This document shows, piece after piece, positions 6,956 to 29,198 of a DNA stretch of 39,906 nucleotides. Where the stretch lies: positions 1 through 39,906 of IMG/VR virus record IMGVR_UViG_3300035670_000546, one strand, 5' to 3'. Position 1 is the first letter of the stretch. Every line of letters begins with the position of its first letter. The stretch comes from a virus. Below the pieces are notes generated by a model. The model did no database searches. It worked only from the letters and a program-made list of their open reading frames with translations, and was not told the DNA's origin. Both the position numbers and the translations under genes were made by a program.

Positions 6956-7159
6956 ATGTCGAATCTCTCTGATTGCTGTGATGCTCCGGTCGTTCACGAG
7001 GACATTTGTTCACGATGCGGTGAACACTGTGAGCCTATTTGTGGCGAGTGTCACAACAGCGGCATCGTGCGAATTGAAAACGAATGGGAAGATTGCGATT
7101 GCGGCTGCCCGTTCAATCGGTATACTGCCGAACACGTCTATGCGGACTGGATTCGGTAG
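6956..7159 (+). CDS. Cysteine-rich zinc-ribbon-like protein (67 aa)
   Basis: Begins MSNLSDCCDAPVV and carries CSRCGEHCEPICGEC and DCDCGC: ten or so Cys in paired spacing, so one or two zinc-binding knuckles are likely. The CCxAP...CsxCxEHC pattern is common in small phage zinc-ribbon proteins. Ends FNRYTAEHVYADWIR. TAG stop abuts the next -35. Probably binds nucleic acid or protein; exact role unknown. Confidence 0.75.
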   Translation: MSNLSDCCDAPVVHEDICSRCGEHCEPICGECHNSGIVRIENEWEDCDCGCPFNRYTAEHVYADWIR

Positions 7160-7188
7160 TTGACAAGTCTGGACAAGTCTGGTACACT
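7160..7188 (+). promoter_or_regulatory. sigma70-type promoter
   Basis: TTGACA-17-TACACT; an 11-bp direct repeat GACAAGTCTGG covers -35 and spacer. Drives 7217. Confidence 0.7.
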
Positions 7189-7216
7189 TCATCTCACAAC
7201 CCCCAGGAACCCCACC

Positions 7217-7603
7217 ATGTCCAGCGAAATCACCAAGCGAATCAAGCGAGAACTCCGAGAGATGGCCGAGTCCTTTTTTGAGGGAATCGCCATCCCGTCA
7301 CTCGTTGCTGTGGCCGACGAGCAAATGATCGAAGATGAGCAGTACGTTTTTGGCACAGGACTGTTCGACACGATCAAGGGCCAGCGTTACGCCGTCTGCG
7401 AAAAGCTCCTGAAGTTTGCGGGTCGTCGCCGCAAGAAGCGGGTGAGTCGATTCAAACACGACAAGAAGTATAACCCGGCTTGTGACGACCTTATGATCGT
7501 CGTAGTTGGCAAACCCGGAAGCAAGGAGCGAATCGACGCCCTTTGCGAGCAATACGCCGCAATCGGAGCAAGCGGCCACGAAGTGAGTCCGTTCAGAAAC
7601 TAG
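7217..7603 (+). CDS. Hypothetical protein (128 aa), paralogue of the gene at 142
   Basis: The ATG at 7217 follows CCCAGGAACC. An upstream TTG in the same frame lies in the promoter and is rejected. The C-terminal 60 residues (KYNPACDDLMIV, GKPGSKERIDAL, SPFRN) align with the 140-aa product at 142. The N-terminus here is a charged helix (SEITKRIKRELREMAESFFE). Basic patch GRRRKKRVSRFKH. Function unknown. Confidence 0.8.
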   Translation: MSSEITKRIKRELREMAESFFEGIAIPSLVAVADEQMIEDEQYVFGTGLFDTIKGQRYAVCEKLLKFAGRRRKKRVSRFKHDKKYNPACDDLMIVVVGKPGSKERIDALCEQYAAIGASGHEVSPFRN

Positions 7604-7628
7604 GCACCGCTGCCTAAAAAAAGGGTAT

Positions 7629-7672
7629 CTGCCAAAATGGCAGAGCCGCCACCCCGACTGCCAAAACGGCAG
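7629..7672. repeat. Paired palindrome element 12
   Basis: Arms CTGCCAAAATGGCAG and CTGCCAAAACGGCAG, gap centred on CCAC. Confidence 0.9.
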
Positions 7673-7682
7673 ACAAATTTAG

Positions 7683-7700
7683 TTTGGCACAGGATTTGCA
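7683..7700 (+). repeat. TTTGGCAC half element
   Basis: TTTGGCACAGGATTTGCA, sigma54-like half site upstream of a promoter with no coding gene after it. Confidence 0.5.
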
Positions 7701-7727
7701 CACAAAAAATTTTTTCAAGCCAACCCC

Positions 7728-7755
7728 TTGACATGACCGATACTGAGTGTAGAAT
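7728..7755 (+). promoter_or_regulatory. Promoter of a non-coding transcript
   Basis: TTGACA-16-TAGAAT with ACCGATAC in the spacer. No ORF above six codons follows. Confidence 0.7.
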
Positions 7756-7761
7756 GATGCT

Positions 7762-7907
7762 ATATCCAACCGAGTAGCTTCCAGAAAATTCAAGCATCAC
7801 GGCAGAAGCAACCTGCCATCTGAGCAAAAAGTTGGTTGTCATCTAGGCCGAGTGACGTAAAAATATTGGGTGCGTTAATTCGCGGAAACCTTATCGGCCC
7901 AATACAC
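7762..7907 (+). ncRNA. Candidate non-coding RNA, segment 1
   Basis: Region after the promoter at 7728, without coding potential. It folds: GCAACC...GGTTGT (about 7807-7838), GTCA...TGAC, and TATTGGG (7864-7870) with CCCAATA (7898-7904) enclosing GCG/CGC. May be a separate short RNA or the 5' part of the larger RNA below. Confidence 0.45.
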
Positions 7908-7935
7908 TTGACAATCAATCATAGTCTGATACAAT
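7908..7935 (+). promoter_or_regulatory. Promoter of a structured RNA
   Basis: TTGACA-16-TACAAT, start expected near 7942. Confidence 0.7.
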
Positions 7936-7941
7936 CACGAA

Positions 7942-8305
7942 ACACGCAGAGCCATCTATCGCAAGCCAAACAAGATAGCCCGTATCGAATACTGAAAAAG
8001 CCTCGCTTATAGAGGATGACGGTTGACACCCCGGCTATGGGAGTCTAAGGTACGCTTGTTTGTGAGTGGAGTAGCGACCCTCCTGCGTCATGCACAACAC
8101 GGCTAGGTTTCATCGAGGGCATAGCGTTGTGGTAGCGAGGTGAGGCTTCGTGCCGCTTGTAACTGAGCAGGATCAACAAAGTGAGCGACCTGGAAAACTC
8201 TGCCACCTTATTCCTGCAAGGCGATTCGTGCCATCGACTAGATGACCTAGGCTCTCATGCTAGATCGGTTCCTGGGTAACGTCCAGTTTGCGGGACCGCA
8301 CATTC
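7942..8305 (+). ncRNA. Candidate structured non-coding RNA (~360 nt)
   Basis: No ORF in any frame fits. Many short helices can be drawn: a long-range closing stem GCAGAG (7946-7951)/CTCTGC (8198-8203); CTATC/GATAG (7956/7974); GTAT/ATAC (7982/7989); CCTC/GAGG (8001/8012); ACGC/GCGT (8052/8085) around GGAG/CTCC; CACAAC/GTTGTG (8093/8126) stacked on GCTA/TAGC (8102/8122); CATC/GATG (8232/8241); ACCTAGG/CCTGGGT (8245/8271); GTCC/GGAC (8281/8293). I do not recognise RNase P, tmRNA, 6S or a group I intron core. Ends at palindrome element 13. Confidence 0.55.
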
Positions 8306-8349
8306 CTGCCAATTTGGCAGGCTCCCTACCGGCTATGCCAAAATGGCAG
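8306..8349. repeat. Paired palindrome element 13
   Basis: Second arm begins ATGCCA; gap centred on CTAC. Lies at the 3' end of the candidate RNA. Confidence 0.9.
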
Positions 8350-8392
8350 TTGAGCAGAGAGAAACTTGGGGCGATTTTGTAGATTTTGGGTC

Positions 8393-8421
8393 TTGACATA
8401 GCCGATATCTATTGGTAGAAT
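8393..8421 (+). promoter_or_regulatory. Promoter of a leaderless gene
   Basis: TTGACA-17-TAGAAT, spacer GCCGATATC; ATG six bases after the -10. Confidence 0.8.
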
Positions 8422-8427
8422 GAAACT

Positions 8428-8640
8428 ATGAAAATCACAAAAAAGAGCGATCTCGAATCAGGCAAACGCTGGCGACTCCTGGCAAGTGAAGCCTATTGTA
8501 CTATCCTTCGTGTTGAAAATTGGGTAAATTACCATAATCGACTAGATAAGGGTACAACTATATATTATATGATCGAAGGTGAACGTAATATCAAACAAAA
8601 GAGCCTTGAAGATTTCCTTTATATGTACGAGCCTACTTGA
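8428..8640 (+). CDS. Hypothetical protein (70 aa), leaderless mRNA
   Basis: The ATG lies exactly six bases after the -10, so the transcript should begin at or next to the start codon, and no ribosome site exists. MKITKKSDLESGKRWRLLAS, beta-rich, ends EDFLYMYEPT. The TGA stop lies in a further TTGACA (8637-8642). Not recognised. Confidence 0.75.
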   Translation: MKITKKSDLESGKRWRLLASEAYCTILRVENWVNYHNRLDKGTTIYYMIEGERNIKQKSLEDFLYMYEPT

Positions 8641-8665
8641 CAAACCAAAAACGGAGTGTATCATC

Positions 8666-8767
8666 ATGGAATGGATTTTCCACAACCCTTTCAATACTGC
8701 CGGTTTCATTACTGTTGTATTTTGTTTGGTTTATACCTTTATGGACTTCATTTCGCCACCAAAATAA
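8666..8767 (+). CDS. Single-span membrane microprotein (33 aa)
   Basis: MEWIFHNPF then a hydrophobic stretch TAGFITVVFCLVYTFMDF. Start after CGGAG nine bases upstream; the 9203 gene has the same CGGAGTxTxATCATGG context. Probably cotranscribed with 8428. Confidence 0.55.
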   Translation: MEWIFHNPFNTAGFITVVFCLVYTFMDFISPPK

Positions 8768-8772
8768 ACCAC

Positions 8773-8800
8773 TTGACAATTCGGTTTTTTCAGTTACACT
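8773..8800 (+). promoter_or_regulatory. sigma70-type promoter
   Basis: TTGACA-16-TACACT; drives 8855. Confidence 0.7.
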
Positions 8801-8819
8801 TCACCTATACGACTGCCAC

Positions 8820-8841
8820 AAGGCCGTCGCCGTTTGAGACA
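8820..8841 (+). repeat. AAGGCCGTCGCC module
   Basis: AAGGCCGTCGCCGTTTGAGA plus CA, here inside the 5' leader, just before the AGGAG ribosome site of the next gene. Confidence 0.6.
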
Positions 8842-8854
8842 GGAGAAAACTAAG

Positions 8855-9016
8855 ATGATTCGTGATGAAGATGAGATGCTTGAGGACGAGTTTGATTTTG
8901 GTACTGGTTATTCGGACGAGCCAGACTTTTCCGATTTTGAAGAAGATGACGAGTTTGACGAAGATGATTGGGAAGATGACGAGTACGAAGATTGGGGAGA
9001 CAACGAAGACTCCTGA
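8855..9016 (+). CDS. Extremely acidic microprotein (53 aa)
   Basis: About 55% Asp/Glu (e.g. EEDDEFDEDDWEDDEYEDW). AGGAGA site precedes the ATG. A DNA-mimic role, as in Ocr- or Arn-type phage anti-defence proteins, is conceivable, but there is no homology to support it. Confidence 0.65.
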   Translation: MIRDEDEMLEDEFDFGTGYSDEPDFSDFEEDDEFDEDDWEDDEYEDWGDNEDS

Positions 9017-9024
9017 CAACAAGC

Positions 9025-9068
9025 CTGCCTTTATGGCAGGCTCCCTACCCGCTCTGCCAAAATGACAG
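9025..9068. repeat. Paired palindrome element 14
   Basis: Arms CTGCCTTTATGGCAG and CTGCCAAAATGACAG, gap centred on CTAC. Confidence 0.9.
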
Positions 9069-9126
9069 ATTGTGTAGGAGAGCAAATATCGTGCCAAAGA
9101 AAATGTTTTTGGGCGAATTTTTGCTA

Positions 9127-9155
9127 TTGTGGCGGGTGGAATTGGTCGATATACT
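9127..9155 (+). promoter_or_regulatory. Variant promoter
   Basis: TTGTGG-17-TATACT, with CGGGTGG at the spacer start as in the promoter at 24215; drives 9203. Confidence 0.5.
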
Positions 9156-9202
9156 AAGTATGGCCGAAGGATCGGCTAGTAACCAACAAACGGAGTATTA
9201 TC

Positions 9203-12359: not shown

Positions 12360-12403
12360 CTGCCATTCTGGCAGACTCCCTACCGCTACTGCCAAAATGG
12401 CAG
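12360..12403. repeat. Paired palindrome element 18
   Basis: Arms CTGCCATTCTGGCAG and CTGCCAAAATGGCAG, gap centred on CTAC. Preceded by TTGTAAGGGGTTGC, also seen near 1358. Confidence 0.9.
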
Positions 12404-13515: not shown

Positions 13516-13543
13516 TTGACAAACTCGTTTGGGCGAGTATAAA
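13516..13543 (+). promoter_or_regulatory. Promoter with a dyad spacer
   Basis: TTGACA-16-TATAAA; the spacer contains CTCG-TTTGGG-CGAG. Drives 13607. The equivalent site at 18137-18170 has lost the -35. Confidence 0.6.
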
Positions 13544-13588
13544 TAGATCATTAAGCCCAAAGCGGGGGACGGAACCAACCGCCCCCAT
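13522..13588 (+). other. Conserved 3' structure, copy 1
   Basis: ACTCG-TTTGGG-CGAGT hairpin whose loop can pair with CCCAAA downstream (possible pseudoknot in read-through RNA), then GGGGG...CCCCC hairpin. Similar sequence follows the paralogue at 17846. Confidence 0.45.
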
Positions 13589-13606
13589 TGATATAAAAGG
13601 TGAAAT

Positions 13607-13823: not shown

Positions 13824-13891
13824 AAGGCCGACGCCGTTTGAGACAGACTGCCAAATTGGCAGCTTCTCCACCGGGCCTGCCAAAATGGCAG
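13824..13891. repeat. AAGGCCGACGCC module joined to paired palindrome element 20
   Basis: AAGGCCGACGCCGTTTGAGA module at 13824-13845, palindromes at 13848-13862 and 13877-13891 (gap centred on CCAC), then an inverted module TTTCAAACGCCAACGGGC. Together they form one large inverted repeat holding two hairpins. Confidence 0.8.
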
Positions 13892-13909
13892 TTTCAAACG
13901 CCAACGGGC

Positions 13910-14010: not shown

Positions 14011-14712
14011 ATGAAAACTGCTGTTGGTAATGACAAGCTCGGAAAGAATTGTATTGTAGTGTCGCGTCCGGTTGGCGACACTTGCCCTTCAAGCTGTGCG
14101 TTTCTTGGAAACGGATGCTATGCGGAAGCGACGGAGCGACAGTACCAAAATGCTCGCGTTGCAGGCTTCGCCAATATCATTACGGAAAAGGGTCGTATTC
14201 GCTCCATGATTATTGACGCCCACAAAAAGGGTAAGTCTATTCGATGGCATGAACGTGGCGATTGGTTTCTCAACGGTAAACTCGATACCGATTATCTCAA
14301 CAATGTGATATGGGCATGTGAGTCTATCGTCAAGGATGGTGGCGAGTTGCCCGAAATGTGGTTCTACACTCATATTTACGATAGTCGGCTTGTTGCTCTG
14401 GACAAGTATATGGCGGTCTATGCGAGCGTACATAATGCCGAACAAATGAACGAAGCAAAGTCTGTAGGTTTCAAACTGTTCGCATGGTGCGACGACACTT
14501 CCATCGCTCCAAAGCGGCCAAAGTCTAAGGCTAAGGCCGACCAGTGGCGGGCATCGCTCCCTAAGCTAGTCGTGCTGAACGGTGAAAAGTTTGTGACATG
14601 CCCGGAAATTAGGCGGGGTCGTGCTACTATTACTTGCACCGGGACAAAGGATAGTCTGGCTTGCGATATGTGTCCGCGAGGATTAGCGAACGTGCTTTTC
14701 CCGTGCCACTAA
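14011..14712 (+). CDS. GP88-like cysteine-rich phage protein (233 aa)
   Basis: Resembles the mycobacteriophage 'gene product 88' type: N-terminal NDKLGKNCIVVSRPVGDTCP with Cys25, Cys29 and Cys36 (TCPSSC...GCYAE), a central conserved RWHERGDWF, and a C-terminal Cys cluster (CPEI, CTGT, ACDMCPRG) closing with LFPCH. The spaced Cys/His could hold a metal or Fe-S centre. Function of the family is unknown to me. Monocistronic; GAAGGA site. Assignment is from motif memory. Confidence 0.75.
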   Translation: MKTAVGNDKLGKNCIVVSRPVGDTCPSSCAFLGNGCYAEATERQYQNARVAGFANIITEKGRIRSMIIDAHKKGKSIRWHERGDWFLNGKLDTDYLNNVIWACESIVKDGGELPEMWFYTHIYDSRLVALDKYMAVYASVHNAEQMNEAKSVGFKLFAWCDDTSIAPKRPKSKAKADQWRASLPKLVVLNGEKFVTCPEIRRGRATITCTGTKDSLACDMCPRGLANVLFPCH

Positions 14713-14867: not shown

Positions 14868-15233
14868 ATGGAATCGATCCTGTTCTACTCTGCTGCTTGT
14901 CTCTCTGCTTCTGTCGCCCTCGCCTATATCGTATTCGCACTAGTTTACGGTATCGACAATACGCTTGTCAAGGCTCAAGTCGGCAAGTATTACCGATTCA
15001 CTTATCTTCAGCCTACGGCGACTATGCCAACGGTAATCGAAGGAAAGGTTCTTTCGGTACGTCGTCTGTCTGACAAGTCTATTGGTAGGATTCATCGTGA
15101 TAGCGAATATCGTGCCAATGATCCCAACTTCATCCGAACTAGGCATCTGGTTACGATTCACACGCTTGATCGAAAACTGATGAATGTTTACGCGGAGCGT
15201 ACAGCCAACACGCGGCGGCTGCCGTCCGCATAG
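14868..15233 (+). CDS. Membrane-anchored protein (121 aa), paralogue of 11923
   Basis: N-terminal span (FYSAACLSASVALAYIVFAL), then GKYYRFTYLQP and a basic beta-rich domain with GRIHRDSEYRANDPNFIRTR and YAERTAN. Same layout as the 127-aa product at 11923. AAAAGGA site. Unknown role at the membrane. Confidence 0.75.
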   Translation: MESILFYSAACLSASVALAYIVFALVYGIDNTLVKAQVGKYYRFTYLQPTATMPTVIEGKVLSVRRLSDKSIGRIHRDSEYRANDPNFIRTRHLVTIHTLDRKLMNVYAERTANTRRLPSA

Positions 15234-15271
15234 TAAAATCCGACTCCAGATCGGTGGTGAGCTACGGCTTA

Positions 15272-15315
15272 CTGCCAATCTGGCAGTTTCGGTCGAGGCA
15301 CTGCCAAAATGGCAT
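15272..15315. repeat. Paired palindrome element 22
   Basis: Second arm ends CAT; gap centred on GTCG. Confidence 0.85.
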
Positions 15316-15320
15316 AGAGC

Positions 15321-15348
15321 TTGACATGGTGTATCCATATGGTATAAT
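15321..15348 (+). promoter_or_regulatory. sigma70-type promoter
   Basis: TTGACA-16-TATAAT; drives 15381. Confidence 0.8.
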
Positions 15349-15380
15349 TCCGTTACTGCTAAACAACATGAGGTGCTACG

Positions 15381-15659
15381 ATGCTTGTCACTAATTGCAA
15401 ACGTAAGTGCTATGGTCTAAGTGAATATGTGCATGTGTACGAATGTGATAATTCTGGGGATGTTACATTCATGGGCAGTAGTCGGGATGGCGTGCCGTTC
15501 ACTATGGTAGTCAATAAGGAAGATTTTGTAGATTTTTGTAATGGAGAAAAGGCTATACAGCACTGTTTTCCATATTTAACAGCAGACGAACGAGAGCTAC
15601 TACTAACAGGATTTTCTGTGTCTGATTGGGATGAGTTATTTGGTGACGTTTCTGAGTAG
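15381..15659 (+). CDS. Conserved-looking phage hypothetical (92 aa)
   Basis: C-terminal IQHCFPYLTADERELLLTGF SVSDWDELFG resembles a common small phage family with 'iQ~~fPyl~~~dREfl~sG~c~~CWd~~f' (from memory). N-terminal half is a beta hairpin region. GAGGTG site. Confidence 0.75.
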   Translation: MLVTNCKRKCYGLSEYVHVYECDNSGDVTFMGSSRDGVPFTMVVNKEDFVDFCNGEKAIQHCFPYLTADERELLLTGFSVSDWDELFGDVSE

Positions 15660-15705
15660 AATACATATAAATAATAAATAAAAAAAAGAAAGGCGATTTA
15701 GTATA

Positions 15706-15852
15706 ATGGAAGTATTAGGTGCGATTTTGGTGTTTGGCTTTATTTGGTATATTATCTTTAAGCCAGCAGATCAGCAATCTACGAGCTACAGACTTGGCAA
15801 GGGACTTGGCAGAAAAACACAAAAACTTGGAAAATGGATAATGGATGAATAA
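15706..15852 (+). CDS. Single-span membrane protein (48 aa)
   Basis: MEVLGAILVFGFIWYIIFKP, then a basic tail (YRLGKGLGRKTQKLGKW). Start after AAAGGCG. Likely cotranscribed with 15381. Confidence 0.6.
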   Translation: MEVLGAILVFGFIWYIIFKPADQQSTSYRLGKGLGRKTQKLGKWIMDE

Positions 15853-15857
15853 GCCTA

Positions 15858-15885
15858 TTGACAACTCCAACCATTATGATATAAT
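15858..15885 (+). promoter_or_regulatory. Promoter of a leaderless gene
   Basis: TTGACA-16-TATAAT; ATG six bases later. Confidence 0.8.
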
Positions 15886-15891
15886 CCTATT

Positions 15892-16029
15892 ATGCTAGAA
15901 ATCACTTACAGAGTTGTGCAGGAAGGTCGTTTTGTCGGTTATGTTTTGGCGTTTTGTCAACAAGCTGCCGAAACTGACGCAATAAAGAAGTTTGGGGCGA
16001 ATTGCCTAGTCAATAAACTATTGGTATAA
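15892..16029 (+). CDS. Microprotein (45 aa), leaderless mRNA
   Basis: MLEITYRVVQEGRFVGYVLA FCQQAAETDAIKKFG; beta-turn-beta then helix. ATG six bases after the -10. First gene of a four-gene run to 16551. Confidence 0.65.
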   Translation: MLEITYRVVQEGRFVGYVLAFCQQAAETDAIKKFGANCLVNKLLV

Positions 16030-16038
16030 AGGACAAAT

Positions 16039-16203
16039 ATGAATACAAAAATGCTTCGATATGTGTGTTTCGTTGTCACTTCTCTCATTGCTATTTTTTC
16101 TATGAATAGTCCTAGTTATCAATATTTGATTGGTAATACGATGATTTGTGGAATGAATTGCTTAATTTGTACTGTGTGTTTCAACGACTGGAATGAAAAA
16201 TGA
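16039..16203 (+). CDS. Two-span membrane microprotein (54 aa)
   Basis: Hydrophobic segments near residues 7-21 and 30-47, Cys-rich second span (CGMNCLICTVC). AAAGGA site; ATGA overlap with the next gene. Confidence 0.6.
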   Translation: MNTKMLRYVCFVVTSLIAIFSMNSPSYQYLIGNTMICGMNCLICTVCFNDWNEK

Positions 16204-16367
16204 TTACATTTAGCATTAGCTCGCTTGTCGCTATGAATATCGGGTGGATTGTTGGGCAACTACTGATATTTACTATCAGTCCTAAAGAGGCTAAATATCC
16301 GGCACTTGATATGATAATGTCTGTGATGATTTTTTCATTTGGCTTATATCTTTTCCACGGACAATAA
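16200..16367 (+). CDS. Two-span membrane protein (55 aa)
   Basis: ATGA overlap with 16039. Spans approximately residues 6-25 and 36-52. TAAG/ATG spacing couples it to the next gene. Confidence 0.6.
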   Translation: MITFSISSLVAMNIGWIVGQLLIFTISPKEAKYPALDMIMSVMIFSFGLYLFHGQ

Positions 16368-16368
16368 G

Positions 16369-16551
16369 ATGCAATTACGAAAACTACAGATTTTTGCCGA
16401 ACAGTACGGCTACCACGTTGAGAAAGTTGGGCGGATTTACCAATGGTGGAATGATAGGGATCATAGTATAATTGGGGAATGTAAAACTATTAGGGAATGT
16501 TATAGTGAAATTTCCTCAGACATTCTATCTAAAGTAGAAGTAATTGTGTAA
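16369..16551 (+). CDS. Hypothetical protein (60 aa)
   Basis: MQLRKLQIFAEQYGYHVEKV, helix then beta (GRIYQWWNDRDHSII), then helix. The ATG is one base after the previous stop. Soluble; unknown. Confidence 0.65.
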   Translation: MQLRKLQIFAEQYGYHVEKVGRIYQWWNDRDHSIIGECKTIRECYSEISSDILSKVEVIV

Positions 16552-16595
16552 CTGCCAAAATGGCAGACACTCTGCCCTCGCTGCCAAAAAGGCAG
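16552..16595. repeat. Paired palindrome element 23
   Basis: Gap centred on CTGC, the most divergent core. Confidence 0.85.
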
Positions 16596-16625
16596 ACCCA
16601 ACGTAACCCTAGATATCTCAAACAC

Positions 16626-16653
16626 TTGTGGACAACCGCCCTTCTGGTATAAT
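16626..16653 (+). promoter_or_regulatory. Variant promoter
   Basis: TTGTGG-16-TATAAT, upstream of the microprotein at 16688. Confidence 0.6.
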
Positions 16654-16668
16654 GTGGTTTTGGGCCAC

Positions 16669-16697
16669 TTGACACTAGGAGAAAAGTATGGTATATT
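16669..16697 (+). promoter_or_regulatory. Second promoter overlapping a microORF start
   Basis: TTGACA-17-TATATT; the -10 covers codons 2-4 of the microORF at 16688. Same arrangement at 25306-25333. Confidence 0.5.
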
Positions 16698-16747
16698 GTA
16701 TTTTCACTCTATGCGTAGTTTGCGGTCTATGTGGGTGTTGTCGATAA
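16688..16747 (+). CDS. Cys-rich hydrophobic microprotein (19 aa)
   Basis: MVYCIFTLCVVCGLCGCCR, six Cys. Similar to the 21-aa MVYLIFGLCVICGYCQCCVGK at 25324, including position relative to two promoters. AGGAGA site eight bases upstream. Likely membrane-inserted peptide; could bind metal. Confidence 0.5.
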   Translation: MVYCIFTLCVVCGLCGCCR

Positions 16748-16852
16748 CGAATAGGTAATATTTGGTCGAGAACAGGGAATCAGAAAACCCGCCCTTATTG
16801 CAACCTTCGAAAGACTCCAAATCTTTTGATGAAGGGCTATGGCTTCCCCTTG

Positions 16853-16900
16853 TCTCGGCCAATCCTTCGGATTCGGTTTTAGTGGTCGTAGTCAGCCAAA
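16853..16900 (+). repeat. Dispersed double-hairpin element, copy F
   Basis: CGGCCAATCCTTCGGATTCG then GTCGTAGTCAGCC. Confidence 0.6.
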
Positions 16901-16911
16901 ATAAGGAGCAC

Positions 16912-16939
16912 TTGACAAACGATTTCCTTGTGGTATAAT
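16912..16939 (+). promoter_or_regulatory. Promoter of a leaderless gene
   Basis: TTGACA-16-TATAAT; ATG six bases later. Confidence 0.8.
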
Positions 16940-16945
16940 ACCAAT

Positions 16946-17173
16946 ATGAAAAAGATTATGGATCACGCCGCTTATATGCGGAAAGTAAAGAAGATGTCGG
17001 AAAGTGAACTGGAATACACTATCCAAGATTGCCGCGAGGTTATTGCTGCAATGCCTGATGGCGAGAACGTGGGTTATTACACGGACGAAATCCTGTATTG
17101 CCACGGTGAACTCAAAAGGCGAGATATGCAGGCATCAAAACGAATCCACAAATACGTATACGGAAATAAATGA
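16946..17173 (+). CDS. Conserved-looking phage hypothetical (75 aa), leaderless
   Basis: MSESELEYTIQDCREVIAAM PDGENVGYYTDEILYCHGEL: the 'L~~~i~da~~ai~a~Pd~~~~gyY~DEi~yc~~El~rR' pattern is frequent in small phage proteins (recalled). Helical. ATG six bases after the -10; ATGA overlap with 17170. Confidence 0.75.
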   Translation: MKKIMDHAAYMRKVKKMSESELEYTIQDCREVIAAMPDGENVGYYTDEILYCHGELKRRDMQASKRIHKYVYGNK

Positions 17174-17343
17174 TGTGTAGCGAACGCAACAAAGCAATTC
17201 TCAAAGTAATTATTTCGATTAGGAACAGAATGGCTCTTATGAGCCAAAAAACTCAAGAAGAAATTGCTAACACAATCAAAGAGCACAATATTACTGCTCA
17301 AGAGATTATTGATATGTGTGTGGAGATGAATTTCTCGGTATAA
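17170..17343 (+). CDS. Helical hypothetical protein (57 aa)
   Basis: MMCSERNKAILKVIISIRNR..., a helical protein with TQEEIANTIKEHNITAQEII, reading like a small helix-turn-helix, although no DNA-binding family is recognised. Overlaps the previous stop. Confidence 0.6.
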   Translation: MMCSERNKAILKVIISIRNRMALMSQKTQEEIANTIKEHNITAQEIIDMCVEMNFSV

Positions 17344-17347
17344 TATC

Positions 17348-17560
17348 ATGATAAGATTAACAATAGAACAAGAAGAAGTACTCAGTAAGATAGCTGTGGA
17401 AGACCGTGCTGTATTAGCTGACATGATTCGCAATACAGAAGTAGAACGTACCTGGGATCGATGTGGTGACGAATCTTTTTGTGGCGAAAACGCAACAGAG
17501 ACACTAAATAATATAGCTAGTATTATTGAAAACTTTGATCCAGAATCAATAGATTACTAG
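17348..17560 (+). CDS. Acidic helical protein (70 aa)
   Basis: MIRLTIEQEEVLSKIAVEDR; ATG four bases after the previous stop and directly after a TATAAT, without a matching -35. Unknown. Confidence 0.65.
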   Translation: MIRLTIEQEEVLSKIAVEDRAVLADMIRNTEVERTWDRCGDESFCGENATETLNNIASIIENFDPESIDY

Positions 17561-17561
17561 G

Positions 17562-17605
17562 CTGCCAAAATGGCAGCTTCGCTACCAGGCCTGCCAAAAT
17601 GGCAG
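17562..17605. repeat. Paired palindrome element 24
   Basis: Both arms CTGCCAAAATGGCAG, gap centred on CTAC. Confidence 0.9.
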
Positions 17606-17617
17606 CATACACCGCGA

Positions 17618-17658
17618 CAGCAAACGCTGTGCCAAAAAGGCCGTCGCCGTTTGAGACA
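17618..17658. repeat. GTGCCAAA half element joined to AAGGCCGTCGCC module
   Basis: CAGCAAACGCTGTGCCAAAA runs into AAGGCCGTCGCCGTTTGAGA. Confidence 0.55.
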
Positions 17659-17679
17659 AAAGATTTTTGACCTACCCTC

Positions 17680-17707
17680 TTGACTAACACGAAGTGTATG
17701 GTATAAT
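17680..17707 (+). promoter_or_regulatory. Tandem promoter 1
   Basis: TTGACT-16-TATAAT, paralogous to 13093. Confidence 0.75.
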
Positions 17708-17767
17708 CCATGTATCACAAGACAAGACGCTGACGAGAGCACAAATAACAAAACTCGCTCATGTGAC

Positions 17768-17795
17768 TTGACAAGTGGTAAAACGCTGCTATAAT
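17768..17795 (+). promoter_or_regulatory. Tandem promoter 2
   Basis: TTGACA-16-TATAAT, paralogous to 13162. Confidence 0.8.
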
Positions 17796-17845
17796 GGTTG
17801 TAGTAGTGAGTGATTGGAAACGATAGTCTTTTGGAGTAAATAGCA

Positions 17846-18136
17846 ATGGTGCGTGAAAAGTGTGCGTTTGATGTGAGTCTGGTTGCTGCCGCTGGTAGCG
17901 TTGATCGTGAAGCGGTTGCTCAGGCGATTGCGGATTTTCTGGACGAGCGGTTTGGTGATTCGGTTGAGAACATTGGCGTCAAGGCTGGTGCAGTCAAGAC
18001 GTTTACGGAGCAGGGCTACAAGGTGTGGCGTGCTCGTGTGACGGGTGAGACTGCGGAGCAGGCTGGCGATTCGGCCAATCCGAAGAAGGTCAAGGCTCCG
18101 AACCTTGAAGCTCCTGCGGAAGCTGCGGCTGAGTGA
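17846..18136 (+). CDS. Hypothetical protein (96 aa), paralogue of 13239
   Basis: VREKCAFDVSLVAAAGSVDR, EGYK-like EQGYKVWRARV, tail GDSANPKKVKAPNLE then an Ala/Glu end. Leader (GAACGATTGG-like sequence, TTTTGGAG) matches the other copy. Codons are G-rich and regular, suggesting high expression. Function unknown. Confidence 0.8.
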   Translation: MVREKCAFDVSLVAAAGSVDREAVAQAIADFLDERFGDSVENIGVKAGAVKTFTEQGYKVWRARVTGETAEQAGDSANPKKVKAPNLEAPAEAAAE

Positions 18137-18146
18137 ATCAGCGGCT

Positions 18147-18220
18147 CGTTTGGGCGAGAATAAACAGACTTTAGGCCCAAAGCGGCAGGACGGTATCCAT
18201 TCCGTCTTGCGTAGAAAATG
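18147..18220 (+). other. Conserved 3' structure, copy 2
   Basis: CTCG-TTTGGG-CGAG hairpin, CCCAAA able to pair with its loop, then GGACGG...CCGTCT hairpin. Parallels 13522-13588. Confidence 0.45.
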
Positions 18221-18269
18221 CAAAGGATGCGCAACTTTGCCTAAGCTAGTCTAGTCAACAATCTTACGT

Positions 18270-18371
18270 CTTGACCGACTGCGGAATAGCGGTTAGCTTA
18301 GTATAAAATAGAGACTCATTACCGCTATTGAGGCGAGAAGCCCGTGGGACTTTGAATCCTGCGGGTTTTTT
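18270..18371 (+). terminator. Structured 3' region ending in an intrinsic terminator
   Basis: AATAGCGGT and ACCGCTATT form a nine-bp stem around a 27-nt loop. Then CCCGTGGGA-CTTTGAA-TCCTGCGGG is followed by six T (18341-18371), a standard rho-independent terminator. A short RNA ending here is possible. Confidence 0.75.
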
Positions 18372-18387
18372 CGTAGACTTTTCTAAA

Positions 18388-18431
18388 CTGCCAAAATGGC
18401 AGGGCGGGTAGCGAGACTGCCATAATGGCAG
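18388..18431. repeat. Paired palindrome element 25
   Basis: Gap GGCGGGTAGCGAGA: core in the opposite sense (GTAG). Confidence 0.9.
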
Positions 18432-18481
18432 AAATATTAGACGACTTTTATAATAATGGTGTAAGGAAAGAAACGGACCAC

Positions 18482-18510
18482 TTGACAACGGGTGTCGGGT
18501 CGGCTATAAT
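18482..18510 (+). promoter_or_regulatory. sigma70-type promoter
   Basis: TTGACA-17-TATAAT; transcript runs toward the tRNA array. Confidence 0.75.
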
Positions 18511-18553
18511 GGTAGAGGTCAGGAAAAACAACATTAAGGGTAACGAATTTCAA

Positions 18554-18658
18554 ATGTCCAGAATTAACTACAACACGATTGATACCACGAAAACATCGTG
18601 GAACGTCCGTAGTCATTCAGGCTTTGGATATCGCCAAAATCCAGCCTGCGAAGGCTAA
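18554..18658 (+). CDS. Possible microprotein (34 aa)
   Basis: MSRINYNTIDTTKTSWNVRS HSGFGYRQNP. Weak, distant AAGGG site. May instead be untranslated leader of the tRNA operon; GGGG/CCCC hairpins follow at 18675-18711. Confidence 0.4.
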   Translation: MSRINYNTIDTTKTSWNVRSHSGFGYRQNPACEG

Positions 18659-18766
18659 TTCTTGCCCCTTTGTGCTCGGGGTGAGAACCCCTTGAGCCTT
18701 CTCTTGGGGAATATCAGAGAGTACAAATAGTTTCGCTCTTTGACAATTCGGGTTTCATAAAAAACA

Positions 18767-18839
18767 CATACTCATGGTGTAACGGTAGCATCACTGTCTC
18801 CAAAACAGTTGGTCAAGGCTCGAATCCTTGTGAGTATGC
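18767..18839 (+). tRNA. tRNA-Trp (CCA)
   Basis: Acceptor CATACTC/GAGTATG, anticodon loop CTCCAAA, T arm CAAGG/CCTTG. No encoded CCA end. Confidence 0.85.
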
Positions 18840-18843
18840 TTTC

Positions 18844-18914
18844 GCCTCTTTAGGATAGTGGTAATCTAACTTTTTCATACGAAGTTGACGCTTGTTCAAT
18901 TCAAGCAAGAGGCA
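18844..18914 (+). tRNA. tRNA-Met (CAT)
   Basis: Acceptor GCCTCTT/AAGAGGC, loop TTCATAC. Elongator Met or a lysidine-type Ile tRNA; not separable by eye. Confidence 0.8.
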
Positions 18915-18915
18915 T

Positions 18916-18998
18916 TTCGGCGTAGAGGAGTCTGGTCGTCCTCGCAAGTCTCATAAACTTGAAATCGCATTAAAGTGGTTCAAATCCCGCCGCCGACA
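18916..18998 (+). tRNA. Initiator-like tRNA (CAT), irregular
   Basis: Loop CTCATAA and a D arm like initiator tRNAs; acceptor TTCGGCG/CGCCGAC leaves position 1-72 mismatched, an initiator feature. But the anticodon stem lacks the three G-C pairs, the variable loop is long and the T stem needs a bulged C. Confidence 0.6.
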
Positions 18999-19003
18999 TA
19001 ATA

Positions 19004-24725: not shown

Positions 24726-24959
24726 ATGTATACCTTTGTTGTAGTAAGAGACAATTCTGTGGAAGACTGTAAGTCATTTATTGATTATTGGGCGGCTGAA
24801 GATTATGCTAATGATTTTATACAAAAAATAGATCACGAAATTGGCCCCATAGACTTTCGTAAGGGAGTCTTTTATCAACAAAGGGGGTTGAGTGTTGGAG
24901 TTTATCATTCTCCTGTGTATAATAATACATTAAAATCTTTTTGTGAGTATTCTCTATAA
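24726..24959 (+). CDS. Hypothetical protein (77 aa)
   Basis: MYTFVVVRDNSVEDCKSFID; AGGAGA site. The opening strand then DCKSFIDYWAAEDYANDFIQ helix resembles a small alpha/beta protein. Unknown. Confidence 0.7.
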   Translation: MYTFVVVRDNSVEDCKSFIDYWAAEDYANDFIQKIDHEIGPIDFRKGVFYQQRGLSVGVYHSPVYNNTLKSFCEYSL

Positions 24960-24976
24960 TTTTTGAAAGGGACATA

Positions 24977-25231
24977 ATGCAAACTGTAATCGCCCAATAT
25001 CAATTCGACACTATTCATTATGAGGTAATTGCCCTTCACGAAGGAGCATTAGACCCGTACTCGCTTGATAATGTAACTAATTTTCTGTTAAAAAGAAATG
25101 GTGAAGTAGTATTGAGGGACTGCGATCTTTATTTTGGACAGCTAACTGTGCCTACTTATAGAGAAGTTGTCCAGTTTGAAAGGAATGAGGGGCAGTTTCA
25201 TCAAACCTCCAAGAAGAATGACCTAACCTAA
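24977..25231 (+). CDS. Hypothetical protein (84 aa)
   Basis: MQTVIAQYQFDTIHYEVIAL; GAAAGGGA site. Mixed beta/alpha, C-terminus polar. Last gene of the 24490-25231 unit. Confidence 0.7.
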   Translation: MQTVIAQYQFDTIHYEVIALHEGALDPYSLDNVTNFLLKRNGEVVLRDCDLYFGQLTVPTYREVVQFERNEGQFHQTSKKNDLT

Positions 25232-25250
25232 GTCTAGTAATGCCAACGAC

Positions 25251-25279
25251 TTGCGACTAGCAGGCGTCTGTGGTACAAT
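25251..25279 (+). promoter_or_regulatory. Variant promoter
   Basis: TTGCGA-17-TACAAT; drives the microprotein at 25324. Confidence 0.55.
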
Positions 25280-25305
25280 GGTGGCTTCTGGCCCTGTTAC
25301 ATTAC

Positions 25306-25333
25306 TTGACAAAGGAGGCGTCTATGGTATACT
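25306..25333 (+). promoter_or_regulatory. Promoter overlapping a microORF start
   Basis: TTGACA-16-TATACT; covers the AAGGAGG site and the ATG of 25324; may drive 25402. Confidence 0.55.
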
Positions 25334-25389
25334 TGATTTTTGGTCTATGTGTGATTTGTGGATATTGTCAATGTTGCGTAGGAAAGTAA
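25324..25389 (+). CDS. Cys-rich hydrophobic microprotein (21 aa)
   Basis: MVYLIFGLCVICGYCQCCVG K, five Cys, strong AAAGGAGG site. Homologous to the 19-aa product at 16688. Confidence 0.6.
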   Translation: MVYLIFGLCVICGYCQCCVGK

Positions 25390-25401
25390 GGGAGTTGTGA
25401 C

Positions 25402-25602
25402 TTGAAAAAAATCTGTGTAGTTACGCTCAATATCGAATTTGATGACACTTATACTAATCCAAAAGATTGGCAGTGGGATTCTATTATTAATGATTCTATT
25501 GAACATATGTCTAGAATAGAATACGATAGATACTATTGTCATACCCAATTAGTGAATTGTCAATATTTCGATACTAATAAGCCCACTATTGACAATCCTT
25601 AG
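25402..25602 (+). CDS. Hypothetical protein (66 aa), TTG start
   Basis: TTG start nine bases after GGGAG: (M)KKICVVTLNIEFDDTYTNP; no ATG fits. Beta-rich then helix. Its 3' end contains the next promoter. Confidence 0.65.
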   Translation: MKKICVVTLNIEFDDTYTNPKDWQWDSIINDSIEHMSRIEYDRYYCHTQLVNCQYFDTNKPTIDNP

Positions 25603-25616
25603 TAGGGTGGTAGAAT
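25589..25616 (+). promoter_or_regulatory. sigma70-type promoter
   Basis: TTGACA-16-TAGAAT; drives the operon 25647-26679. Confidence 0.8.
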
Positions 25617-25646
25617 AGGATTCGTACAGTACACACGGAGCAAAAA

Positions 25647-25850
25647 ATGTTGATAAACGCAGAAAATCGTGATAAGATTCAAGATGAATATATCCAACAG
25701 ATGATTGATGGTATGGATATAGATACTCTAGCTTCATTAGCTTATGATTATTTAAGTAAAGATAAAGATGAATATACGCACAAACAACTTGAAACAGAGA
25801 TTTTAGAGTATTATCCAGAAATACTTGGAGTAGAAGAAGATGATGAATGA
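25647..25850 (+). CDS. Conserved-looking phage hypothetical (67 aa)
   Basis: YIQQMIDGMDIDTLASLAYD YLSKDKDEYT..QLETEILEYYPEIL. The '~iDgMd~~tL~~la~d~L~~~~~~~~~~~L~~Ei~ey~PeiL' form is common in T4-like and cyanophage genomes (recalled). A looser relative is at 35379. CGGAG site. Confidence 0.8.
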   Translation: MLINAENRDKIQDEYIQQMIDGMDIDTLASLAYDYLSKDKDEYTHKQLETEILEYYPEILGVEEDDE

Positions 25851-26109
25851 ACTTCTTGAAGAGTTTATGGATCAAGAAAAGATTCATAATTTTGAGGGCG
25901 ATAGCGGCCTTAAAAACTTGGAAAGAATCATTGAAGCTCTCGGCTATAAGCCTCATGGGTTTCGTTTTGGAAGTCTGGTCGAAGTATTTCTGTCAGACAA
26001 CTCGGCGGCGTGTGATGCCCTTATTGATTTTATACGCGATTCTAATGTTAGAGATTGGGCGGAATCATTAGAGAGTAATCTTTATGAAAAGGAAGAAGAT
26101 GATGAGTAA
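25840..26109 (+). CDS. Conserved-looking phage hypothetical (89 aa)
   Basis: NFEGDSGLKNLERIIEALGY and FRFGSLVEVFLSDNSAACDA LIDFI...: resembles a widespread family with 'f~~~~G~~~L~~l~~aiGY~~~~fr~G~~lE~FL~DN~GA~e~ii~Wi'. Overlaps the previous gene by 11 bp. Unknown function. Confidence 0.8.
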   Translation: MMNELLEEFMDQEKIHNFEGDSGLKNLERIIEALGYKPHGFRFGSLVEVFLSDNSAACDALIDFIRDSNVRDWAESLESNLYEKEEDDE

Positions 26110-26278
26110 AAGTATTAGAGAAATTAGTGAACAGATTCAGGAAGACTTAATTGTTTTACTTGAGTCACAATTTGGTGAAGTAGAATATCTTGAAGATGTA
26201 AAAGATATGGCTTGTCAAATTGTTGTTGATCATATGAAAGAATTTGAAGAAAATCACGGAATTTATAGGTTAAGATAA
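26102..26278 (+). CDS. Helical hypothetical protein (58 aa)
   Basis: MSKSIREISEQIQEDLIVLL; overlaps neighbours on both sides (TAATG to the next). GGAAGAAG site. Confidence 0.7.
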   Translation: MSKSIREISEQIQEDLIVLLESQFGEVEYLEDVKDMACQIVVDHMKEFEENHGIYRLR

Positions 26279-26460
26279 TGCGATATATGGCCGAGGTTTA
26301 TGTTCTATTCCACAACAACACATGGGAGTTTCACCATATTGAAATTCCTAAGTGGATGTTTGAATCTCTAGACGCAGAAATGGTAGACACAGAATTGTTT
26401 GACCAAATTTATAAAGAGAATATCTGTTCTCTTAAAGTTCGCCGCAAGTATATAGTATAA
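26278..26460 (+). CDS. Hypothetical protein (60 aa)
   Basis: MRYMAEVYVLFHNNTWEFHH IEIPKWMFESL, strand pair then helix, basic end. Coupled to 26102. Confidence 0.7.
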   Translation: MRYMAEVYVLFHNNTWEFHHIEIPKWMFESLDAEMVDTELFDQIYKENICSLKVRRKYIV

Positions 26461-26469
26461 GGAGCTAAA

Positions 26470-26679
26470 ATGTTGATTAGTGCTGTTGATTTGGTTTCAA
26501 AGATGAAAGACCCAAAAGTTCTTATTGTAACAAAAGGCGGTGGGCGAAAAATTTATGACTCGCCCTCAGAAGGATGTCAGAATCCTAATTTGATTATGGT
26601 TATTGATGGTGGTTCTGTTGTTTATATTCCCATTAAGACTATCGAAAAGATGGAAATATTTGACAGCGCCAGACAATAA
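26470..26679 (+). CDS. Hypothetical protein (69 aa)
   Basis: MLISAVDLVSKMKDPKVLIV TKGGG...VYIPIKTIEKMEIF: beta-rich; AAGGAG site. Last gene of the operon; hairpin element H follows. Confidence 0.7.
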   Translation: MLISAVDLVSKMKDPKVLIVTKGGGRKIYDSPSEGCQNPNLIMVIDGGSVVYIPIKTIEKMEIFDSARQ

Positions 26680-26686
26680 TGGGCGT

Positions 26687-26757
26687 GTCTGAGCCAATCC
26701 TTCGGATTCGGAATGTTGGCGGTAGTCAGCCAAAATATGATAGTCAGCGAGATTTGA
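26687..26757 (+). repeat. Dispersed double-hairpin element, copy H
   Basis: GAGCCAATCCTTCGGATTCG, GTAGTCAGCC, a second TAGTCAGCGAG. Sits between convergent genes. Confidence 0.65.
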
Positions 26758-26768
26758 GGATCACTTGA

Positions 26769-26957
26769 TTAGTCGCCCAAATAATTCTTGGCTAGTTTAT
26801 CAAGTACTTCCTTATCTTCCTGCATAACTTTTCTAGCAACTTCTATTTGGTCCCCTTCTACTCTGGGAACCGCATGCCAGACTTCTCTACTATTATTCTT
26901 ATCGTCAACTTCTATTGTAGAATATTGAAGAATATTTTGTAACCAACGAAGTTGCAT
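26769..26957 (-). CDS. Hypothetical protein (62 aa)
   Basis: MQLRWLQNILQYSTIEVDDK; ends LDKLAKNYLGD. GGGAGAAAC site on the minus strand. Second gene of the transcript from 27365. Confidence 0.7.
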   Translation of the reverse strand: MQLRWLQNILQYSTIEVDDKNNSREVWHAVPRVEGDQIEVARKVMQEDKEVLDKLAKNYLGD

Positions 26958-26968
26958 AATTTGTTTCT

Positions 26969-27030
26969 CCCTATCCTTCGGATTTGCCCCAGTTGCTCGT
27001 AGTCAGCGAGTTATTGAGGACTCTTATAGG
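26969..27030 (+). repeat. Dispersed double-hairpin element, copy I
   Basis: CTATCCTTCGGATTTG, CGTAGTCAGCGAG, GAGGACTCTTATAGG; between two minus-strand genes but in the usual plus orientation. Confidence 0.65.
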
Positions 27031-27242
27031 AATCCTATCTTTTTCTTATCTTTAACTTCAGGATTAATCTCCAGAGATTCTAACCACTGAGTTTTCTTTT
27101 CGCCCTTATCAAAATAACTAACTTCATACAAGACATAATTGTTATGTCTGATTTGAATACCAATAATAGTACCTTCCATTGTTGACATAAGAACTTGAGT
27201 GCCTATTGGATAAACTTCTAATTCGTCATGATTTTTCTTCAT
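27024..27242 (-). CDS. SH3/KOW-like small protein (72 aa)
   Basis: YPIGTQVLMSTMEGTIIGIQ IRHNNYVLYEVSYFDKGEKK: 'G~~V~~~~~G~I~gI~iR~~nyv~YeVsy' reads as a small five-stranded barrel, seen in many phage proteins. AGGA site. First gene of a two-gene minus unit. Confidence 0.75.
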   Translation of the reverse strand: MKKNHDELEVYPIGTQVLMSTMEGTIIGIQIRHNNYVLYEVSYFDKGEKKTQWLESLEINPEVKDKKKIGFL

Positions 27243-27266
27243 AAAAATTCCTATAGTCAGATGTTC

Positions 27267-27327
27267 CAGCCGATCCTTCGGATTTGCTTTAGTTGCTCAT
27301 AGTCAGCCAAATGTTTAGGACTCTTAG
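27267..27327 (+). repeat. Dispersed double-hairpin element, copy J
   Basis: AGCCGATCCTTCGGATTTG, CATAGTCAGCCAAATG, TAGGACTCTTAGC. Lies in the leader of the minus-strand transcript. Confidence 0.65.
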
Positions 27328-27337
27328 CTGTCATCCT

Positions 27338-27365
27338 ATTATATCTAAAAAATCCGGCCTGTCAA
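27338..27365 (-). promoter_or_regulatory. Minus-strand promoter
   Basis: TTGACA-16-TATAAT on the minus strand; drives 27242 and 26957. Confidence 0.8.
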
Positions 27366-27390
27366 GGGGTTGGTTACGCAGAAAAGAGTT

Positions 27391-27606
27391 CTATGGGCGA
27401 TTTTCAATAGAAATAATAGCTAACCATACAATCCATTTCACTAAGGAAACCCAGAATCCTATGTTTGCTATGATTGCTCCTAGTATGAAAGAGGCGATCA
27501 TTAAGTCTTCTGATAATTTTTTGAAGATTAAAAGATATATAATGGGCCACACACATAAAAATAATCCGCCCAAAAACAACCACTCTGAATATTGTATTAG
27601 TGTCAT
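27391..27606 (-). CDS. Two- or three-span membrane protein (71 aa)
   Basis: Hydrophobic segments: LFLGGLFLCVWPIIYLLIF, LMIASFILGAIIANIGFWV and LVKWIVWLAIISI. ATGA overlap with the gene before it. Last gene of the minus operon starting at 28143. Confidence 0.75.
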   Translation of the reverse strand: MTLIQYSEWLFLGGLFLCVWPIIYLLIFKKLSEDLMIASFILGAIIANIGFWVSLVKWIVWLAIISIENRP

Positions 27607-27782
27607 ACTATAGTTTTCTCAGTTTTTGGCAGTTTGGGAAATTCATCTTTTCGTCCAATCCATTTTTGGGTGAAATATATATTTTCAAATGATTTGGCGG
27701 GTAGTCCATAGAATTCAAAAATATGATAAAATAGATCTAGTTCATCATCCCAATAAGTATCGGGTGGAATACCTTCTATCAT
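27603..27782 (-). CDS. Small repeated-family protein (59 aa)
   Basis: MIEGIPPDTYWDDELDLFYH, KWIGRKDEFPKLPKTEKTIV end. Shares 'KWIGRK(D/E)EFP.L..TEKT(I/L)' with the next gene upstream. ATGA overlap on both sides; start chosen by that overlap. Confidence 0.7.
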   Translation of the reverse strand: MIEGIPPDTYWDDELDLFYHIFEFYGLPAKSFENIYFTQKWIGRKDEFPKLPKTEKTIV

Positions 27783-27967
27783 ATTAATGTTTTTTCTGTT
27801 ATTTGTAGGGGAGGAAATTCTTCTTTTCGCCCAATCCATTTCTTATGAAAGTCTGTATATTTTGGGTAAGGATAAAATGCTGGCTTTCCTATGGAATGAA
27901 TAAATTTCCAGCAAAAAATGTCTCTATCTGCGCAATAATAGACACTTATAGGAATCGCTTCTTTCAT
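27779..27967 (-). CDS. Small repeated-family protein (62 aa)
   Basis: MKEAIPISVYYCADRDIFCW; end KKWIGRKEEFPPLQITEKTL parallels 27603. ATGA overlaps. Confidence 0.7.
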   Translation of the reverse strand: MKEAIPISVYYCADRDIFCWKFIHSIGKPAFYPYPKYTDFHKKWIGRKEEFPPLQITEKTLI

Positions 27968-28143
27968 GACAATGTTTTTAAAGTAATCTTAACTTCATTA
28001 TTTGGAATAATTTTAACATCAGGAATAACAAAATATACTGAATATAGTAGTATAGCTTCTTGAGCTTTTTCTTGTGTTGGAAATGAGCGATCTAGAAAAA
28101 CGGAATTGCTATCTTTATTAACAACCGCCCATTCTTGTTCCAT
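27964..28143 (-). CDS. Small repeated-family protein (59 aa), leaderless
   Basis: MEQEWAVVNKDSNSVFLDRS; helix EKAQEAILLY, end VKITLKTLS. First gene of the four-gene minus operon. Its ATG is six bases after the -10, so the mRNA is probably leaderless. Confidence 0.65.
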   Translation of the reverse strand: MEQEWAVVNKDSNSVFLDRSFPTQEKAQEAILLYSVYFVIPDVKIIPNNEVKITLKTLS

Positions 28144-28149
28144 CCACCC

Positions 28150-28177
28150 ATTGTACCATAAGAAAAACGTGTGTCAA
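28150..28177 (-). promoter_or_regulatory. Minus-strand promoter of a leaderless operon
   Basis: TTGACA-16-TACAAT; its -35 contains the TGA stop of the HNH gene upstream. Confidence 0.8.
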
Positions 28178-28506
28178 GGGCGATTTTTGATATTTTCTTG
28201 CATCTTTTTACAGTCTTCAATAACATTACTATTATAGGATTTATAATTCATTAGATGGCCAAATAACAAATGACATTTTTGAGCACACAAAGTTATTAGA
28301 TTTGCTGGATCTAGTTCTAAGTCTGGCCTTAAATGAAAAGGAATTATATGATGTACTTCTAAATTATCTTTAGTCAAACAAGCTTGGCACAAATTTTCTT
28401 TTTTAAGATGTTGCTTACGAACCCCATCCCATTGAGGGTCGCGTCCGCCAAAAAGTTCTTCTGACGATTTTTTGGTAAGTCCCCAATTAAATCCAAATAG
28501 TTTCAT
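28174..28506 (-). CDS. HNH endonuclease (110 aa)
   Basis: Homing-type or packaging-associated HNH nuclease. Cys40-xx-Cys43, LEVHHIIPFHLRPDLELDPA (His52/His53), Asn69, ITLCAQKCHLLFGH (Cys74, Cys78, His79, His84): the ββα-metal motif framed by two zinc Cys pairs. Last gene of a three-gene minus operon (29046 to 28174), overlapping 28503 by four bases. Free-standing mobile or accessory nuclease; target unknown. Confidence 0.85.
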   Translation of the reverse strand: MKLFGFNWGLTKKSSEELFGGRDPQWDGVRKQHLKKENLCQACLTKDNLEVHHIIPFHLRPDLELDPANLITLCAQKCHLLFGHLMNYKSYNSNVIEDCKKMQENIKNRP

Positions 28507-28715: not shown

Positions 28716-28716
28716 T

Positions 28717-29190: not shown

Positions 29191-29198
29191 GGATGGAT

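Follow-up and report, generated by a model that had tools for sequence, protein, structure and literature searches.

The window is an entire viral record from IMG/VR, 39,906 bases long, and its locus at positions 7728-8306 is very probably a structured RNA gene belonging to a modular RNA family of large uncultured phages. The RNA of the relatives consists of successive covarying beads, each closed on its own, with AAUACAA-type linkers between them. One of these, bead A, is found in the window as a very divergent member, with the fold retained and the sequence almost entirely different. The initial annotation had proposed a candidate novel structured RNA at this locus, which is now supported by the absence of any Rfam or protein match, by covarying homologues and by a covariance model that recognises the window. 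The bead-and-linker modularity and the pseudoknots had been overlooked.

The locus lies in a gap of 824 bp (7604-8427), bounded by one gene ending at 7603 and another starting at 8428, and no ORF in any frame of this gap scores as coding. The sole ORF of at least 60 aa is a reverse-strand chance ORF (7600-7842), which scores as non-coding (-5.5 nats); the genes flanking the gap score +8 to +13. ORF scoring was used instead of a coding-potential HMM, which was dropped because, in phages with genes this small, it called too much noncoding sequence as coding. A protein gene at the locus was therefore rejected, in agreement with the gene-free locus of 820 bp that had been described initially, and the conserved protein in a dismissed frame that the same description had allowed for was found in no frame by ORF scoring. 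The proteins flanking the locus match no Pfam family above the cut-off. Paralogous, weakly DUF5788-like proteins are encoded at 142-564 and 7217-7603, the latter gene adjoining the RNA gene directly upstream. The Rfam search proposed in the initial annotation was run: Rfam 15 gives no match at the locus, and the locus searched alone gives just two sub-threshold chance hits at E<10. Group I introns, RNase P, tmRNA and 6S RNA were rejected on this basis, and the earlier failure to match the locus to these four, to GOLLD or to ROOL is thus consistent with Rfam.

Folding stability does not distinguish the locus from shuffled sequence. The 607-nt fold has a z of -0.23, with 8 of 20 shuffles equally or more stable, and the z of single beads ranges from -0.45 to +0.53. 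Minimum free energy was consequently discarded as evidence for a structured RNA, and the evidence for structure had to come from relatives; in these data, selection on structure is visible through comparative evidence only. The complementary segments pointed out initially, namely CACAAC (8093-8098)/GTTGTG (8126-8131), GCTA/TAGC and GCAGAG/CTCTGC, are present.

A DNA search with the locus in cultured phages and 50 related viral records gave nothing above chance, and the RNA-flanking proteins, used as queries, led only to two contigs of identical sequence from the same phage. The three contigs carrying the exact window sequence show 100% identity, and the window lineage therefore shows no variation. 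With the DUF7227/GP88 protein (14011-14712, 6 kb downstream of the RNA) as the query, 78 further related viral contigs were obtained from IMG/VR. An ORF-based gap scan showed that most relatives exhibit a gene-free gap of about 600-1,100 bases, usually about 4 kb upstream of the GP88 gene. These gaps are alike in DNA, and the likeness of the window to them lies mainly across the promoter. The window genes at 4876, 5334 and 5862, upstream of the RNA, mostly keep this position relative to bead A in the relatives, and the genes at 10866 and 13236 and the GP88 gene mostly lie downstream of it, all on the same strand and with some rearrangements. Model R2 detects bead A in 26 of 33 related large-phage records, with a single locus in nearly all cases. 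The phage of the window is continued by IMGVR_UViG_3300034073_003542, a 209,847-base contig with 99.98% identity over window positions 14940-33790, and together with a 21-kb contig from the same sample it puts the genome size at no less than about 230 kb. The remainder of the 209,847-base contig contains no bead A, so the window copy is the only one of this phage as far as the contigs reach.

In the family, the beads are 80-200 nt long, differ from each other and vary in number and order. A rough split gives 33 architectures in 57 relatives; as single-linkage clustering merged beads A and B, this figure is approximate and the number of bead types can be given just as many. Bead A, of about 145 nt, has a cloverleaf-like fold: P1 is the stem that closes the bead, P2 is a hairpin, P3 is a further stem and P6 is a T-arm-like hairpin. 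The P3 arm is capped by a pseudoknot, P4, in which the loop of hairpin P5 takes part. Across 30 sequences, 97.7% of the cells of its 35 pairs, those of the pseudoknot included, are paired. Double-sided changes are observed in 15 of the 35 pairs and amount to 61 cells, compared with 14.3 in shuffles and at most 11 when the pairing partners are slid. GU/UG cells number 76 against 2 AC/CA cells, which indicates that selection acts on the RNA of the + strand. Homologues, for which the initial annotation had suggested a search, therefore exist, and they covary strongly.

The 3' bead, bead B (ACCAG...CUGGU), exhibits a median identity of 91% in its constant parts, against 29% and 23% in its two arms. 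The correlation between the arms is 0.02; in 16 pairs of sequences only arm 1 is shared, and in 14 only arm 2. The arms are exchanged whole and independently, as cassettes. The 5' bead of the relatives has its own covarying pseudoknot, and some relatives carry further beads, tRNAs among them. Some tRNA-like beads, for example in L128 and L156, contain long extra segments between the D-arm and the T-arm and could be expanded or intron-bearing tRNAs. None of the relatives' beads matches an Rfam family. The spaced bead A pattern is present in 48 viral stretches; an exact-pattern scan of 84,980 bacterial and archaeal genomes gave no occurrence, and bead A was not found in cultured phages.

In the window, sequence profiles miss the copies: with nhmmer, the bead A profile does not find the locus (best score 0.8 bits, elsewhere), and the sequence profile of the 5' bead, bead 0, gives no hit. 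Covariance models were adopted for this reason. Model R1 matches over its full length at 7945-8097 with 15.0 bits (E=3.7e-4 in the locus); in 1.13 Mb searched with default filters, nothing outside the family exceeds 14.1 bits, and the window hit itself is absent from that listing. Model R2, which comprises R1 and divergent relatives with the window left out, scores 21.0 bits (E=9.4e-6 in the locus and 4.5e-4 in the whole window, filters off), the next-best place in the window reaching 13.3 bits.

The bead A of the window spans about 145 nt on the + strand (7944-8088) and is supported by both models, a check of the pairs and a shuffle test. Its stem P1, ACGCAG/CTGCGT (7944-7949/8083-8088), retains 5 of 5 model pairs, and stem P3, CAAACAAG/CTTGTTTG (7967-7974/8055-8062), retains 8 of 8, mostly changed on both sides. 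P5, GACaCCC/GGGaGTC (8025-8031/8039-8045), has 5 of 6 pairs, and P6, the T-arm-like hairpin at about 8064-8082, is imperfect, with 4 of 6. The pseudoknot P4, ATAGCC/GGCTAT (7975-7980/8033-8038), is intact (6/6), although it is absent from both R1 and R2. Between P1 and P3 there is an insert of 16-17 nt without a clear stem, and P2 is not recognisable. As the closing stem includes GCAG (7946-7949), the GCAGAG/CTCTGC helix over 250 nt put forward in the initial annotation is superseded and very likely wrong.

A descriptor of P3, P4 and P5 alone was too loose, with ten matches in the locus, and was dropped. In the final descriptor, built from the relatives, P1 was added and the requirement for P6 was removed, the window having failed a strict P6. 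This descriptor finds 24 Watson-Crick pairs in the window, a number that none of 5,281 shuffles reaches. When the bead is folded in isolation, P1, P3 and P5 appear unprompted in the minimum free energy structure. The nearest subtype is that of L084, L092, L189 and L211, and L084 has GATAGCCC and GGCTATGGGA in common with the window. The context usual in the family is also observed: a phage promoter in front, AAUACAA-type linkers (degenerate), a gene-free stretch and a similar neighbourhood.

Upstream of bead A, the segment 7832-7904 (+ strand) is probably homologous to the 5' bead of the family. It exhibits a GTCA (7838-7841)/TGAC (7853-7856) helix and a pseudoknotted helix GGCCGA (7846-7851)/TCGGCC (7894-7899), and it aligns with the relatives through GGCCGAG, GUAAAA, GGAAAC, UCGGCC and CAAUACA in the same order. 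Model R3 matches this bead 0 over its full length with 11.9 bits; the E value is 0.73 over the whole window, which is not significant, and would be about 0.015 on the scale of the locus. A CAATACA linker follows, within CCAATACA (7899-7906, + strand; family consensus AAUACAA).

The two promoters reported in the initial annotation are confirmed, each with 11 of 12 consensus positions on the + strand. Promoter P1 (7728-7755), TTGACA-16-TAGAAT with a CCGATA motif in the spacer, has an expected start at about 7762. The type TTGACA-CCGATA-TAGAAT is the common one of the window's phage, and of 57 dereplicated relatives, 51 have a matching promoter 5' of the RNA. The promoter-like P2 (7908-7935), TTGACA-16-TACAAT, would start transcription approximately where bead A begins. 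Its -10 box (7930-7935) overlaps the linker-like TGATACAATC just upstream of bead A, and the site may be a linker, a genuine internal promoter, or both; a promoter directly 5' of bead A is also present in some relatives. In the region 7000-9200, nine promoters are found against 2.6 expected.

On the 3' side of bead A, a linker-like ATGCACAAC (8090-8098, + strand; CCAAUACAAC in the family) overlaps the 5' arm of the CACAAC/GTTGTG plus GCTA/TAGC hairpin (8093-8131, + strand). This hairpin is possibly a small third bead, and no homologues of it were found. The 3' part of the RNA (8132-8304, + strand), which includes CGGTTCC/GGGACCG, is delimited, like the hairpin, from the sequence only, and blastn gives no match between it and the RNAs of the relatives; it is assigned to none of the known types of bead. 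The locus is closed by a palindromic repeat at 8305-8349, of the same class as CTGCCAAAATGGCAG...CTGCCAAAACGGCAG at 7629-7672, upstream of the RNA gene. These belong to an intergenic double palindrome, TGCCAAAATGGCA...TGCCAAAATGGCA, of which the window contains more than 10 copies on both strands (other examples are 9024-9085, 12360-12403, 13848-13893, 17562-17605 and 22664-22707). The same double palindrome occurs in the relatives L032, L033 and L036, and the copies are possibly terminators or a mobile repeat.

Other RNA elements are present elsewhere in the window. An array at 18768-21466 comprises 24 tRNA genes, which together serve most amino acids, and two Pistol ribozymes, of 61 bits each, are found near genes and this tRNA island (13523-13592 and 18144-18216). 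In two scanned relatives (L023 and L024), a Pistol ribozyme lies just 5' of the GP88 gene. A second short gene-free stretch (16669-16905) exhibits a strong promoter (TTGACA at 16669, TATATT at 16697) and the hairpin CCAATCCTTCGGATTCGG, and its 3' element recurs near 10300, 11551, 26696 and 27273, as well as in the relative L161; it is possibly a second small RNA.

With regard to function, 7728-8306 would be a stand-alone noncoding RNA gene, promoter P1 driving an RNA of about 545 nt. The single-stranded linkers would be cut as in tRNA operons, which would release tRNA-like pseudoknotted RNAs able to act in trans. The released beads could bind a host defence factor that recognises RNA, or titrate it; a nuclease that cleaves tRNA or other RNA would be an example. 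This decoy or antidote role is, tentatively, the mechanism that we rate as the most likely, and it would account for closing stems and T-arm-like hairpins that hardly vary next to arms that are rapidly exchanged. The modularity points to an RNA weapon or decoy in the conflict between phage and host, and the exchange of arms while the closing stems stay constant resembles an arms race. The T-arm-like loops of P6 and the ACCA or GCCA after P1 suggest tRNA mimicry. More speculatively, the transcript could be a combinatorial armoury of shared tRNA-like pseudoknotted beads with cassette-swapped arms, each RNA neutralising a different host RNA-targeting defence.

It is rather unlikely that the RNA is instead a scaffold resembling GOLLD or ROOL, which would form a multimeric cage or particle during infection with the beads as structural arms. 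The similar size, the presence in phages, the own promoter, the pseudoknots and the tRNA-rich phages would fit such a role, as would the tRNAs within the 5' part in some relatives, which are also reported for GOLLD (PMC12286853). However, a variable number and order of beads, with roughly 33 architectures in 57 relatives, fits poorly with a fixed symmetric cage, and neither Rfam model matches. The GOLLD (RF01998) and ROOL (RF03087) models give no hit in the window or the relatives at the gathering score, nor at E<10 in the RNA regions tested. That the RNA acts in cis, as a leader or attenuator controlling the gene at 8428-8640 (70 aa), which is the next gene downstream on the same strand, is very improbable. 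This reading was rejected since the promoter scan gives that gene a separate promoter (8393-8421, + strand); moreover, the gene 3' of the RNA differs among the relatives and often has its own promoter.

We also give very little credence to a degenerate tRNA or tRNA-like operon, or a spacer without current function, with the window copy decaying. Although the T-arm-like hairpins and the extreme sequence divergence of this copy could be read in this way, compensatory changes keep P1, P3, P4 and P5 despite the sequence turnover, which indicates ongoing selection, and the Rfam tRNA model does not match. That the locus is an unrelated noncoding spacer resembling bead A by chance is likewise hardly plausible. 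Scores of 15-21 bits are modest, and another place in the window reached 13-14 bits; nevertheless, the match is full-length, on the right strand, in the right place and at the right distance from the shared promoter, and it is accompanied by an independent pseudoknot and a pair count absent from all 5,281 shuffles.

The preferred reading, a modular RNA gene with a decoy or antidote role, can be compared with several known systems. Bead A resembles tRNA in the order of its elements, with an acceptor-like P1, a D-arm-like P2, a third arm and a T-arm-like P6, in the loops UUUGAUU and UUGGAUU of some members, and in the ACCA or GCCA found 3' of P1 in 17 of 42 aligned copies. In contrast to tRNA, its third arm is a pseudoknotted domain and there is no anticodon loop; the window locus is matched neither by the Rfam tRNA model nor by ARAGORN. 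A precedent for the decoy idea is provided by type III ToxI and its phage mimics, in which a host ribonuclease can be neutralised by pseudoknotted RNA units arranged in tandem (PMC3475682). The units of ToxI are short, almost the same in sequence and located next to a toxin gene, whereas the beads of the new family are 80-200 nt long and mutually different. A type III antitoxin RNA was rejected, as no tandem repeats were seen in the locus sequence and the flanking proteins have no Pfam match above the cut-off; no toxin gene was identified next to the beads.

The RNA class is new and falls loosely within the large phage noncoding RNAs; the literature, in the part covered, gave no description of it, and one may exist. 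It adds a structured RNA class that is missing from Rfam, from cultured phages and from the bacterial and archaeal genomes searched. As the fold in the window outlasts sequence similarity, such RNAs have probably been widely missed. The swapping of beads and arms with kept closing stems and pseudoknot makes the function of a large phage RNA directly testable bead by bead. GOLLD and ROOL are large ornate RNAs of phages and prophages, both in Rfam and with published structures, and in GOLLD the 5' part is variable and may include tRNAs (PMC12286853). Like them, the new family is large, pseudoknotted, phage-encoded and noncoding, and occurs in tRNA-rich settings. In contrast to them, the new family exhibits separately closed beads, AAUACAA linkers and cassette-swapped arms.
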